NCBI GenBank assembly: GCA_025356815.1
Contig: JANXQL010000130.1
Coordinates: forward strand, 1 to 41,231
Origin: Pseudomonadota bacterium
GTDB taxonomy: Bacteria > Pseudomonadota > Gammaproteobacteria > Steroidobacterales > Steroidobacteraceae
Length of the DNA stretch: 41,231 nucleotides
Direction: 5' to 3'
Position 1 is the first letter of the stretch, and each line of letters begins with the position of its first letter. Below, one piece after another: positions 12,892 through 18,552 of the stretch. The notes below the pieces were generated by a model. The model searched no databases. It was not told the origin of the DNA and worked only from the letters and a program-made list of their open reading frames with translations. A program made the translations under genes and the position numbers.

Positions 12892-13622
12892 GGCGCGGGC
12901 GCCAGCTGTTTCGCCTCGAACAACTGCGGCACCAGGCCGACAAGCTCGGCATGCGTCAGGTTGCGCCAGCGGCCCGGCTCGAGGCCCTCGAGCTTGATGT
13001 TCACGAAACGCACCCGCACGAGGCGGCGCACGGTGTAGCCGAAGACATCGCACATGCGGCGGATCTGCCGGTTGAGTCCCTGCGTCAGCACGATGCGAAA
13101 AACGTTCTTGGCGACCCGCTCGACCTCGCAGGGCGCGGTCATCGTGTCGAGGATCTGCACGCCTTTCGCCATGCCGGCGAGGAACTCGTCGGTGACCGGA
13201 CGATCGACCGTGACGATGTATTCCTTTTCATGCCGGTTCTCGCGGCGCAGCAGCAGGTTCACGATATCGCCGTTGTTGGTCATCAGGATCAGGCCCTCCG
13301 AGTCCTTGTCCAGGCGTCCAACCGGAAAGACCCGCTCGCGATGCGCGACGAAGTCGACGATGTTGTGCGCCACGCGCTGGTCGGTGGTGCACTCGATGCC
13401 CAGCGGCTTGTGCAGCGCGAGGTAGACATGCCGCGACGGGTCTCCGGCCACGACGCCGTCGACCGCGACCTCGTCGGTGGGCAGCACGCGCGTCCCGAGG
13501 GTTGCCACCACGCCGTTGACCGCAACGCGGCCGGCCGCGACCCAGGAGTCGGCCTCGCGCCGCGAGCACAGACCGCGCTCGCTGAGGTACTTGTTGATCC
13601 GCAGGCCCGCTTCGGTGTTCAA
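12888..13622 (-). CDS. rluF: 23S rRNA pseudouridine synthase, RluF type
   Basis: RluF converts uridine 2604 of 23S rRNA to pseudouridine in E. coli. The 244-residue protein has an N-terminal S4 RNA-binding domain (LRINKYLSERGLCSRREAD, residues 6-24) and an RsuA/RluB-type catalytic domain with the active Asp in GRLDKDSEGLILMTNNGD. NRQIRRMC is the conserved late motif. NHEKEY-like ENRHEKEYIVTVDRPVTDEF is close to E. coli RluF, which is why I prefer RluF over RluB/E. It lacks the basic C-terminal tail of the E. coli protein. The start is TTG at 13622, overlapping the dnaB stop as TTGA; no better start exists in frame before the S4 domain. It is the middle gene of dnaB-rluF-peptidase. Confidence 0.9.
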   Translation of the reverse strand: MNTEAGLRINKYLSERGLCSRREADSWVAAGRVAVNGVVATLGTRVLPTDEVAVDGVVAGDPSRHVYLALHKPLGIECTTDQRVAHNIVDFVAHRERVFPVGRLDKDSEGLILMTNNGDIVNLLLRRENRHEKEYIVTVDRPVTDEFLAGMAKGVQILDTMTAPCEVERVAKNVFRIVLTQGLNRQIRRMCDVFGYTVRRLVRVRFVNIKLEGLEPGRWRNLTHAELVGLVPQLFEAKQLAPAP

Positions 13623-16228
13623 CGGAAGGCGCCTTCGCCATAGGATTCGGCGACAAGGTTCTCGAAGCGAGTGAACTCGCCGAGGAACGTCAGGTGCACT
13701 TCGCCCGTCGGGCCGTTACGCTGCTTGGCGATGATGATGTCGGCAATGCCCTTGCGCGTCGTCGCAGGCTCGTACACCTCCTCGCGATAGATCATCAGGA
13801 TCAGGTCGGCATCCTGCTCGATCGCGCCGGAGTTGTGCGTGACGATGCCGTCGGCGAGCCAGTTGGCGGGTCCCGGTACCGTCAGGTCGAAGACCTCTTC
13901 CTCACCGGCCGGCTCGATCGCAACGACCGGGTCCCAGAACAGTGCGGAGTCGGAACACGTGCCTGGCGCCGCCGCCTGCCGCTGGCAGGCGTGCGAGACA
14001 CTCATCGACCGGCTCGGCGTGAACCGAACGTGGCGCGTACCACCGTACGGCGTGCCGCCCGTCGCCTGGCGGATGTCTGCGCAGGCCTCGAGCGGCAGTG
14101 CGTCCGCAGTCGCGCTCGGCTCGAGCGCATCGAGGTTGCGACGCAGCGCCTCGGCCGGCGCCACTCGCGGTCCATAGGCACCGACGCGGTCCAGGAACAC
14201 ACGTTGCTGCTGCGCGCCGGCCACATCGACCGTGTGCATGGGGCGCCCCAGCGCGGAAGCGGTCGTGCGCATGCGCGCGACGATGCCGAGCCTCAGCAGC
14301 AGCGCCGCGACGTCGCGCGCAAGGCCCAGGCTACAGGTAGCGAAGCGGACGCGGGCGCTGGCACGCTGCCCGACCCCGCGCACGTCGATCCTTCCGCCGG
14401 TCGCCCAGAGGTGTTGCAGCAACGTTCCGATCTGCGCGTCCGGAAGCTGAAACACGCTGCCCGGCAGGCGCTTCTGGTGGCCGCGCTGGCCCCAGATGCC
14501 GAGGCGCTTGAGCCATCCGCGAACACCATCCGCATGCCAGTGATCGTCTGCGCCGGCGATCCCGAGCTGGCTAGGAGCGGCGTATGGGTCCACCGTGCCG
14601 CCGAGGGACTCGACCGCGGCGCGGACCGCGTCACGATTGGCGCCGGACGCCGCGACATAGCGCCGTGGCTCGTGAAATCGATAGCCGGCGTCGCCGACCA
14701 GCTGTCCGAGCAGGACAAGCTCGTGCTCGTTCCACGCCACGGGCGCTTCGGACGCGGGGACGCGCCGGGCGAGCGCGAGGCGGTCGCCCGGGCCGAGCTC
14801 GGCGACCCTGCGCCAACCGGCCGCGGCGTACAGGCGGTGCTCGCCGGTGGCGCGGATCGACCGACCACTCGCGAGGCTGACCCGGAACACCGGCTTCACA
14901 CCGACGGACCAGACGAGGTCCGACTGCGCGGCAACCAGCTGCCGCCGTGCGTCCATTGCCCAGACACGCGGCGTCTGGCCGACCAGCTCGCGAATGGGCA
15001 GTCGCCGGCCGTCGGCAAGGCAGACCAGCGTGTCTCCCGTCACGCACTCGCGCAGGTCGCTCATCACCGGCTTCTTCTCGACGCGCTGCTCGACGCTGCG
15101 ATTGAGCTGCGACAGCGCAATTACCGGACAGCCGATTTCCTTGGCGAGCGCTTTCAGCGAACGCGAGATCTCTGAGATCTCGGTCGCTCGATTTTCCTTG
15201 GTGCCGGCAACTGTCATCAGCTGCAGATAGTCGACGACGATCAGTCCAAGCCCCTTCTCGCGCTTCAGCCGTCGCGCGCGAGCACGGATCTCGGTGGGCG
15301 TGAGACCGGCAGTCTCGTCGATGTAGATCGGCGCCTGCGACAACACCTCGGTCGCGCTGGTGATCCTTGGCCAGTCCTCGGGCGAGAGCGCACCGGTGCG
15401 CAGATGGCTCTGGCTGACCCGTCCGAGCGAGGAGATCATGCGCAGCGTCAGCTGCTCGGCCGACATTTCCATCGAGAAGATCGCGGTCGGTACCTTGCGA
15501 TCGATCGACGCGTTCTCGGCGATGTTCACCGCGAGGGTCGTCTTGCCCATCGACGGGCGGCCGGCGATGATCACAAGGTCACCCGGCTGCAGGCCTGTCG
15601 TCATGCGGTCCAGCTCGGTGTAACCGGTCGACACGCCGGTGAACGCACCCGGGTTCTGGTGCAGCATGTCGATGCGATCGATCGTCGCGGGCAGGACATC
15701 GCGGATGTTCTGAAAGCCATTGCGCGTGCGCGTGCCGCGCTCGGCGATCGCGAACACCAGCCGCTCCGCCTCCTCGACCAGCTCGCCAGGCGCGCGACCC
15801 TGAGTGTCGAGCGCCGCCGCGGCGATCTCGCCGCCGGCATGCACCAGCTGGCGCAGCAGCCCGTAGTCGCGGACGATCGAGGCATAGGCGCGCACGTTGG
15901 CGGCGCTCGGGGTGTCGCGCGTCAGGCGCGCAAGATAGGCAAGTCCGCCGACGTCGTCGACGATCCCCTTGTTGCCGAGCACCTCGGAGACGGTGACCGC
16001 GTCGCACGGGCTGTTGCCTGCGACGAGCTCGGCGATCGCCACGAAGATCAGCTGGTGATCGCGGCGATAGAAGTCTTCGGGCTGGATGAGGTCGGCGACG
16101 CCATCCCAGGCGCTGGCGTCCAGCATCAGGCCGCCAAGCACGGCCTGCTCCGCCTCCACGGAATGAGGCGGCAGCCGCAGGCCGTCGGTGGCGTCGACAG
16201 AGCGGCGCGGAGAGTCGCTGTACGCCAT
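13619..16228 (-). CDS. dnaB: Replicative DNA helicase DnaB containing an intein
   Basis: DnaB is the hexameric 5'-3' helicase that unwinds DNA at the replication fork. The 869-residue precursor contains the N-terminal primase-interacting domain (residues about 20-120), a linker and the RecA-like ATPase core: Walker A GRPSMGKTT near residues 223-231 and Walker B IVVDYLQLM near 330-338. At SDLRE the helicase is interrupted by an intein (residues 395-799) and resumes SGAIEQDADLILMIYREE. Removing the intein leaves 464 residues, the normal DnaB length, with no other insertion. The ATG at 16228 (MAYSDSPRR) has an AGG-type ribosome site 8 bases upstream; a GTG at 16255 is in frame but has no better site. 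It lies after rplI, separated by a strong hairpin, and overlaps rluF. Confidence 0.97.
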   Translation of the reverse strand: MAYSDSPRRSVDATDGLRLPPHSVEAEQAVLGGLMLDASAWDGVADLIQPEDFYRRDHQLIFVAIAELVAGNSPCDAVTVSEVLGNKGIVDDVGGLAYLARLTRDTPSAANVRAYASIVRDYGLLRQLVHAGGEIAAAALDTQGRAPGELVEEAERLVFAIAERGTRTRNGFQNIRDVLPATIDRIDMLHQNPGAFTGVSTGYTELDRMTTGLQPGDLVIIAGRPSMGKTTLAVNIAENASIDRKVPTAIFSMEMSAEQLTLRMISSLGRVSQSHLRTGALSPEDWPRITSATEVLSQAPIYIDETAGLTPTEIRARARRLKREKGLGLIVVDYLQLMTVAGTKENRATEISEISRSLKALAKEIGCPVIALSQLNRSVEQRVEKKPVMSDLRECVTGDTLVCLADGRRLPIRELVGQTPRVWAMDARRQLVAAQSDLVWSVGVKPVFRVSLASGRSIRATGEHRLYAAAGWRRVAELGPGDRLALARRVPASEAPVAWNEHELVLLGQLVGDAGYRFHEPRRYVAASGANRDAVRAAVESLGGTVDPYAAPSQLGIAGADDHWHADGVRGWLKRLGIWGQRGHQKRLPGSVFQLPDAQIGTLLQHLWATGGRIDVRGVGQRASARVRFATCSLGLARDVAALLLRLGIVARMRTTASALGRPMHTVDVAGAQQQRVFLDRVGAYGPRVAPAEALRRNLDALEPSATADALPLEACADIRQATGGTPYGGTRHVRFTPSRSMSVSHACQRQAAAPGTCSDSALFWDPVVAIEPAGEEEVFDLTVPGPANWLADGIVTHNSGAIEQDADLILMIYREEVYEPATTRKGIADIIIAKQRNGPTGEVHLTFLGEFTRFENLVAESYGEGAFR
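13832..15046 (-). other. DnaB intein with degenerate LAGLIDADG homing endonuclease
   Basis: The 405-residue element begins CVTGDTLVCLADGRR (block A, catalytic Cys at precursor residue 395), has block B GRSIRATGEHRLY with Thr and His, block F EEVFDLTVPGPANWLADG and ends IVTHN followed by Ser, so all standard class 1 splicing residues are present. The N-terminal 100 residues resemble the Rhodothermus marinus DnaB intein. Between the splicing halves are two LAGLIDADG-like helices: LLGQLVGDAGY (about 506-516) keeps its Asp, but LLQHLWATGGRID (about 603-615) has Gly at residue 611 where related inteins have Asp. Splicing is predicted to work while DNA cleavage is probably lost. Base composition matches the host gene, which suggests long residence. 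Confidence 0.93.
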
Positions 16229-16290
16229 CAGATACCTCAGGGTCGATCGGCCCACTCAATGGTGGCCCGATTCTACCCCGAGCGGAGTCT

Positions 16291-18075: not shown

Positions 18076-18552
18076 TTACTCGCGCGGGGCGCGGTCGTCG
18101 CGGTCGTCGCGGCGGGAAGGACGATCACCGCGATCACCGCGATCACCCCGGTCACCGCGGTCACCGCGGTCACCGCGGTCGTCACGGTCGTCGCGGTCGT
18201 CGCGATCGCCACGGGTGTCCTCGCCCTTGTCGTCGCCGGCCTTCGCCATCGGCGAGGGTTCGGTGACAGCCGTATCGACGCGCGTCGTCAGGTGACGGAT
18301 CACGGCATCCGAGAAGCGGAACGAACCCTCAAGCTCGGTCAGCACCTTGCCGTCGCACTCGATGTTCATCAGCACGTAGTGGGCCTTGTGGACCTTGGAG
18401 ATCGGGAAAGCCAGCTGACGCCGACCCCAATCCTCAACGCGATGCACATTGCCGCCGCCCGCCGTGATCATGCCCTTGTAGCGCTCGATCATGGCCGGGA
18501 CCTGCTCGCTCTGGTCCGGATGGACCAGGAACACGATCTCGTAATGTCTCAT
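18076..18552 (-). CDS. rpsF: 30S ribosomal protein S6 with a long Gly-Asp-Arg repeat tail
   Basis: S6 binds S18 and 16S rRNA on the platform. The first 100 residues form a standard S6 domain ([43 protein letters not shown]). The remaining 58 residues are a charged tail: [15 protein letters not shown], then consecutive GDR/DDR triplets from residue 116 to 144 and another pair at 149-154. E. coli S6 also has a flexible acidic C-terminus that RimK extends with glutamate, but this Arg/Asp composition is different. The triplets are encoded by a 9-bp DNA repeat, so length may vary. It is the first gene of the ribosomal operon. Confidence 0.97.
18091..18207. repeat. 9-bp tandem repeat encoding the S6 GDR/DDR tail
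   Basis: On the plus strand units of the type CGCGGTCAC, with variants carrying GAT or GTC, follow each other almost without interruption from about 18121 to 18207, with a few more units at 18091-18108. Each unit encodes one GDR or DDR triplet on the minus strand. Multiples of 9 bp keep the reading frame, so slippage would change only tail length. Confidence 0.85.

Follow-up and report, generated by a model that had tools for sequence, protein, structure and literature searches.

What becomes of a homing endonuclease when the intein that houses it interrupts the gene for a replicative helicase? The question is raised by a dnaB gene on a 41,231-nucleotide stretch of DNA (hereafter the window: contig JANXQL010000130.1 of assembly GCA_025356815.1, family Steroidobacteraceae), which is split by a 405-residue intein with a LAGLIDADG endonuclease. 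The homing cycle is described, in excerpts of two papers, as a succession of invasion, fixation, degeneration and deletion (PMC8966425, PMC3229294). From comparison with inteins at the same site in other genomes, we consider it very probable that the endonuclease of this DnaB intein is decaying under relaxed selection, with its splicing domain kept. An earlier interpretation made from the letters of the window (the sequence-only reading) had already placed the element in the decay stage, and that placement is now supported by changed conserved columns, faster endonuclease evolution, two in-frame deletions, a single dnaB match in the genome, and relatives that appear to stand at other stages.

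The intein and its splicing domain

The minus-strand reading frame at positions 13619-16255 encodes the replicative DnaB helicase, with the ATG at 16228 as its likely start and an in-frame GTG upstream as an alternative (878 amino acids). Over residues 21-868 the whole precursor matches the replicative helicase model PRK07773, whose length leaves room for an intein, at 853.5 bits (cut-off 780). The sequence-only reading had placed a 405-residue insert between SDLRE and SGAIEQDAD, and its coordinates proved exact (Table 1); when the intein is excised by script, the joined exteins form a protein of 464 amino acids and 50.4 kDa, the length that had been expected. The element is an in-frame insertion in a conserved DnaB site and is absent from homologues: G002, G004, G013, G014 and the other empty relatives that were read have SDLRESGA(I/L)EQ without interruption.

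The pattern of a class 1 intein is complete, with an N-terminal Cys, TxxH, a C-terminal His-Asn and Ser at +1. Cys1, TGEH at residues 67-70 (T67 and H70), H404-N405 and Ser+1, the splicing residues named in the earlier interpretation, are all in place, and so is D387. The profile check proposed at that time was likewise borne out. Pfam Intein_splicing (PF14890) scores 66.7 bits (cut-off 35.8), the NCBIfam intein profiles TIGR01445 and TIGR01443 both score above cut-off, and LAGLIDADG_3 (PF14528) scores 45.5 bits (cut-off 22.5) on residues 209-289, in the second half of the endonuclease.

Conserved columns were defined by a leave-one-out procedure, as those conserved in at least 10 of the 11 other full-length copies of the DnaB intein. 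The genome of the window (G000; 95% complete, 207 contigs) departs from 2 of the 67 such columns in the splicing part and, where at least 90% of the 81 wider relatives agree, from none of 53. We infer that the precursor is spliced.

Loss of conserved residues from the endonuclease

The wider relatives are DnaB inteins of about 421 residues from Proteobacteria and other phyla (G005, G008 and L061 to L140), and the 81-row comparison includes the best 80 of at least 560 genome places, with the two distant viral loci L142 and L143 left out. These inteins are orthologous to that of G000 (46-65% identical in the 80 best loci), and the junction is the same in the 9 of 81 loci with flanks printed. The PF14528 match, the helices of a predicted model and structural matches to 7qss, 1dq3 and 1vde all point to a fold with two LAGLIDADG helices. 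The model was built on an alignment of 45 of the 81-row relatives and has a mean predicted local distance difference test score (pLDDT) of 84.2 and a predicted template modelling score of 0.85, with pLDDT block means of 38-66 over residues 311-370; its best structural match among solved intein endonucleases is TliVMA.

The sequence-only reading had described two LAGLIDADG-like helices, the first with its Asp and the second without an acid, and both parts of that description hold. The model places helices at residues 107-118 and 203-217, and Asp119 is present in motif 1. The relatives keep the motif 1 Asp in 78 of 81 cases. In motif 2 (HLWATGG), Gly217, which ends the second helix, stands where all 81 have Asp, a count biased because one of the two peptide search patterns contains that Asp. 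By whole-protein search, the motif 2 Asp is absent only from G000 and G040 among 13 full-length copies. It had been allowed that a catalytic acid might lie elsewhere in the second helix; the only acid in helix 203-217 of the model is D203, at the far end from Gly217. Further changes adjoin the retained acid, since the two residues after Asp119 are Ala and Gly where 81 of 81 relatives have Gly and Ser. The intein is also 16 residues shorter than that of G005, through in-frame deletions of 3 and 13 residues. DNA cutting has probably been lost.

The main evidence for decay, as read from the alignment, is the leave-one-out count, which is independent of any tree. At endonuclease columns G000 departs in 26 of 101 cases; for the 11 other full-length copies the figure is 1 to 8 of 90 to 96. 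G040, in which both acids are gone, departs in 36 of 90. Measured against the 81 relatives, G000 has changed at 15 of 68 conserved endonuclease columns, and none of the 81 exceeds 11. The same counts bear on the proposal that some activity survives, as a nickase or relying on Asp119 only, and lets the intein home slowly. Asp119 is kept, none of the 8 conserved columns in the first helix (G005 residues 101-118) is changed, and three of the 81 relatives lack the motif 1 Asp, so a single-acid loss can precede wider decay. However, the 26 changed columns include the Gly next to Asp119, the Ser that follows it and much of residues 120-172, and double-strand cutting by other LAGLIDADG enzymes requires both acids. 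We therefore regard slow homing by a residual activity as highly improbable.

Probable relaxed selection on the endonuclease

Relative rates point to faster evolution of the decaying endonuclease in G000 than in its two sisters, G005 and G008. With G034 as the outside reference, endonuclease changes divide 34:14 (p 0.0055) and 37:20 (p 0.033) between G000 and the sisters; with G010 they divide 35:7 (p 1.5e-5) and 39:10 (p 3.8e-5), and with both references together 27:6 and 30:8, with p values between 0.033 and 1.5e-5 across the six comparisons. In the splicing part the changes divide almost equally each time (9:8 and 13:11 with G034, 5:6 and 9:10 with G010, 4:2 and 7:5 with both), and the sisters are alike when set against each other (6:9 and 9:8). 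The contrast between endonuclease and splicing domain is significant with G010 as reference (p 0.017 and 0.016). In the intein tree, built without G009, whose intein is split over two contigs, the end branch of G000 measures 0.51 against 0.20 and 0.19.

Codon models run on extein branch lengths give an endonuclease omega of 0.65 on the G000 branch and 0.068 elsewhere, and a splicing-part omega of 0.12 against 0.074. A joint fit with lengths taken from the intein gives 0.14 against 0.037 for the endonuclease and requires a domain-specific effect (p 1.2e-5). A free five-species fit (endonuclease 0.071 for G000 against 0.031, p 0.036) was saturated, with endonuclease end branches of 4-12 and an unconverged one-omega fit for the tail, and was set aside. 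The models agree on direction but not on size, and support relaxed selection on the endonuclease. By changed columns and relative rates the domain shows no selective conservation as a whole, and one segment appears still partly constrained.

Several observations weigh against this interpretation or limit its reach. The contrast between domains is non-significant with G034 (p 0.24 and 0.45) or with both references (p 0.58 and 0.26). With G008 as reference, the endonuclease changes found in one genome alone number 44 for G000 and 3 for G005, but this overstates the contrast because such a reference needs G008 to branch first and the intein tree pairs G005 with G008 (85/10, weak); 44:3 was consequently replaced as the main rate figure by the counts with outside references, which show a smaller contrast. 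Absolute omega is unreliable (0.65, 0.14 or 0.07) because synonymous sites are near saturation, and the value of 0.65 is overstated because 4-fold sites of the exteins diverge less than those of the intein. What the sequences support is relaxation, which falls short of demonstrated full neutrality. A base error at codon 217 is possible in an assembly of 207 contigs; the case for decay is independent of that codon, and decay with splicing kept is supported because 26 of 101 endonuclease columns but 2 of 67 splicing columns have changed. The stronger claim, that the missing acid is a sequencing or assembly error in an otherwise intact endonuclease, would need only one base (GAC to GGC), but we give it next to no credence given the 25 further conserved endonuclease columns that are changed, the two in-frame deletions and the normal splicing part and exteins. 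Finally, the decay is uneven, with the second half of the endonuclease far less changed than the first.

A little-changed endonuclease segment

G000 has changed at 24 of 60 conserved columns across the first half of the endonuclease domain (G005 residues 101-194), against 2 of 41 across residues 195-278, the second half (p 5e-5). The decayed intein of G040, from another genus, departs in the same direction (26 of 50 and 10 of 40, p 0.01). Segment omega on the G000 branch, with extein lengths, is 0.19 for residues 101-118, 0.85 for 119-208, 0.70 for 209-238 and 1.25 for 311-379; for G005 residues 239-310 it is 0.37, which differs from 1 at p 2e-5. These windows were set after the data had been viewed. 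Gene conversion or recombination with an intact copy was considered as the cause of the conserved second half and rejected, 4-fold divergence in 239-310 being not reduced.

A scaffold for folding or for splicing, or selection against misfolded precursor, would explain the pattern. The endonuclease fold might be partly kept as a scaffold on which the precursor folds or splices, in which case the domain would not simply be decaying. In favour of this are the uneven departures shared by G000 and G040, the omega of the 239-310 segment with no sign of gene conversion, and the statement, in an excerpt of one paper, that splicing of some inteins relies on an endonuclease scaffold (PMC8966425). Set against it, the scaffold is dispensable in the 6 of 21 inteins at this site that are mini-inteins, and since some of these lie in the same genus it is not strictly needed; the windows are post hoc, and the omega test uses extein branch lengths, which overstate omega. 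On balance we judge a retained scaffold unlikely. An ordered rather than random decay, with the first half and linker eroding after cutting was lost and the core at residues 236-307 held as a prop for folding or splicing of the essential DnaB precursor, is judged similarly unlikely. If true, the dead endonuclease would be a domesticated scaffold before its deletion, explaining why full-length dead copies persist.

Relatives at the same DnaB site

Intein matches were found in 38 of the 148 genomes searched, G000 included, and an intein at this DnaB site in 21; 8 of the genomes gave no match to the DnaB N-extein at E 1e-60. Both acids are kept in 11 of the 21 (G005, G008, G010, G034, G082, G087, G021, G024, G080, G026 and G077, the last in a second, divergent DnaB-like gene). 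A single acid is lost in two, from motif 2 in G000 and from motif 1, by Val, in G016, and both are lost in G040. The intein of G009 is decayed and split over two contigs, with motif 2 outside the pieces read, and the remaining six are mini-inteins with most of the endonuclease gone (G001, G003, G007, G011, G023 and G051). G016 and G040 belong to another genus of the same family and resemble G000 in having lost acids at the same DnaB site; they differ in that both lack the motif 1 acid, which G000 keeps.

The window's genus is represented by 15 genomes, G000 included. Alongside G000 there are three inteins with both acids, the decayed G009, four mini-inteins and four empty sites (G002, G004, G013 and G014), while G006 has no DnaB match and G012 a DnaB fragment. 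Inspection of the insertion site in close relatives, as had been suggested, thus turned up empty, intact-acid, decaying and mini forms. The mini-inteins of the genus keep different endonuclease leftovers, which indicates separate deletions. As judged from these genes, the genus is a natural homing-cycle series at one site, in which the G000 endonuclease would occupy the decay stage: it appears to be decaying, the splicing part is kept, and relatives hold the other stages. One genus thus offers, at one site in an essential gene, a series in which the order and speed of endonuclease loss can be studied.

Age and arrival of the intein

The sequence-only reading held the element to be host-like in composition and probably not recent. 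The first part stands: GC content at third codon positions (GC3) is 0.84 in the intein, 0.85 in the exteins and 0.805-0.907 in eight reading frames of the window, with which the codon fractions of intein and exteins correlate at 0.92 and 0.91. Host-like composition argues against a very recent arrival. The extein tree, built without the partial G040, the second piece of G009 and G077, groups G000, G005 and G008 with the empty G014 and with G009 (98/99), and in the intein tree G000 joins G005 and G008 (88/94); these groupings fit descent of the G000 intein with those of G005 and G008. The second part holds less firmly. At 4-fold sites the intein shows more differences than the exteins do in the pairs G000-G005 (p 0.008) and G000-G008 (p 1e-4), but not in G005-G008 (p 0.39), and this excess makes a separate arrival in G000 possible. 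The G000 intein may have been acquired separately, or the exteins may be codon-constrained or recombined; the view first taken, that the intein is older than the divergence from G005 and G008, was given up after this comparison.

The DnaB intein of G010 (L006) has a GC3 of 0.65 in a gene whose exteins reach 0.94, which suggests recent import there. Among 50,697 phage records 8 showed an intein match, and in one of these the match spanned most of the query, at 25% identity. Viral contigs gave three loci, one of them close: L141, on a 59-kb IMG/VR viral contig, where a full-length DnaB intein with 47% identity occupies the same junction. In Planktothrix phage PaV-LD (HQ683709.1, 4787-5209), the DnaB-like helicase matches both intein ends, as a mini-intein would (37% of the query, 45% identity). 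These phage and viral matches say little about the route of entry.

A proposed course and its place among known systems

The intein-bearing dnaB is most likely the cell's own helicase gene, because the genes for ribosomal proteins L9 (16334-16783) and S6 (18076-18552, minus strand) lie nearby and the N-extein finds a single match in its own genome at E<=1e-60. The S6 gene has an apparent repetitive charged tail, with near-tandem repeats at about 18090-18210 read by eye.

We propose that the LAGLIDADG endonuclease was functional when the intein entered the lineage, as it still seems to be in most full-length relatives. Selection on it would then have lapsed, and it would have lost the motif 2 Asp, many conserved residues of its first half and two in-frame segments. 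Selection would have maintained the reading frame and the splicing domain, since a working helicase has to come from the only dnaB in the cell: attack by Cys1, transfer to Ser+1, cyclisation of Asn405 and ligation would give the 464-residue DnaB. The order of these events and their age are inferred.

Other decayed inteins have been described and the homing cycle is accepted as a model, which makes the element itself an ordinary one; what is added here is comparative evidence of decay, a within-genus series and the uneven decay. The published case of PhoVMA, as given in an excerpt, is a full-size intein with a degenerated LAGLIDADG endonuclease and a kept splicing domain (PMC8966425). Its structure (7qst) is the rank 4 structural match of our model (TMt 0.66); PhoVMA is an archaeal VMA intein that, so far as the excerpt goes, has lost the acids of both motifs, whereas G000 has lost one. 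The NpuDnaB and Ssp DnaB mini-inteins (4o1r, 1mi8 and 6frg) have the splicing domain in common with G000 (98 columns, 1.1 A and 44% identity for 4o1r), although their structures were solved for forms with no endonuclease domain. Literature searches, confined to open-licence papers and made without a genus name, listed none on a DnaB intein from this bacterial family.

Alignment to PRK07773, a model of mycobacterial origin, suggests that the G000 insertion site corresponds to mycobacterial site a. There, according to an excerpt of one study, the class 1 mycobacterial DnaB intein with an endonuclease (DnaBi2, the Mtu DnaB intein) sits in the DNA-binding loop H4 and shares with G000 its class, Cys1 and the presence of an endonuclease (PMC6195587); the G000 endonuclease differs in having lost an acid and in apparently decaying. 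The same excerpt reports regulated splicing for DnaBi1, and the G000 intein has six cysteines, which together might suggest a stress-sensitive regulator of DnaB kept for host benefit. We think this very unlikely indeed. DnaBi2, the class 1 intein most like that of G000, is described in the excerpt as not inhibited by oxidants (PMC6195587), the G005 intein likewise has six cysteines, the G000 splicing domain shows no rate change and the site is empty in four genomes of the genus. A count of cysteines gave no sign of redox regulation beyond those common to relatives.

Feature coordinates and other inteins

Table 1. Positions in the window of the dnaB gene, its intein and the parts of the intein.
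Feature	Positions	Strand	Basis
dnaB gene with intein	13619..16228	-	ATG start at 16228, 869 aa precursor; DnaB_C 345.7 bits, DnaB N-terminal domain 113.3 bits
N-extein	15047..16228	-	ends SDLRE
Class 1 intein, 405 residues	13832..15046	-	begins CVTGDT, ends THN
C-extein	13619..13831	-	begins Ser+1 (SGAIEQDAD), includes stop codon
N-terminal splicing half, residues 1-100	14747..15046	-	Cys1 and TGEH; 1 departure in 44 conserved columns
LAGLIDADG endonuclease domain, residues 101-275	14222..14746	-	26/101 conserved columns changed; LAGLIDADG_3
LAGLIDADG motif 1, LLGQLVGDA	14687..14713	-	Asp119 at 14690-14692
Site of in-frame 3-residue deletion	14569..14570	-	alignment with the 421-residue orthologue of G005
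LAGLIDADG motif 2, LLQHLWATGG	14393..14422	-	Gly217 (GGC) at 14396-14398 replaces Asp
Little-changed segment, residues 236-307	14126..14341	-	column counts and segment omega
Linker/accessory region, residues 276-363	13958..14221	-	11/32 conserved columns changed
Site of in-frame 13-residue deletion	14065..14066	-	comparison with G005; position alignment-dependent
C-terminal splicing half, residues 364-405	13832..13957	-	His-Asn end; 1 departure in 23 conserved columns; TIGR01443

G000 holds further inteins. The dcd gene (dCTP deaminase; L002, contig C23, 478-3009, minus strand) carries two in one gene. Motif 1 of the first is IAAG, against ISEG in G028 and G089, the two relatives that were read, and its motif 2 is still AGDG; its endonuclease seems to have lost one acid, from motif 1, the opposite one from that missing in the DnaB intein. 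Another intein lies in a ribonucleotide reductase gene (L054, contig C68, 699-3968, minus strand), and its endonuclease keeps LLIGDG and LFDADG; since both motifs are retained there, one genome holds endonucleases at different stages. In G010, a gene resembling DNA polymerase III alpha (L056, contig C1, 2263-7176, minus strand; named by eye) has an intein that is 32% identical to the DnaB intein over residues 28-405.

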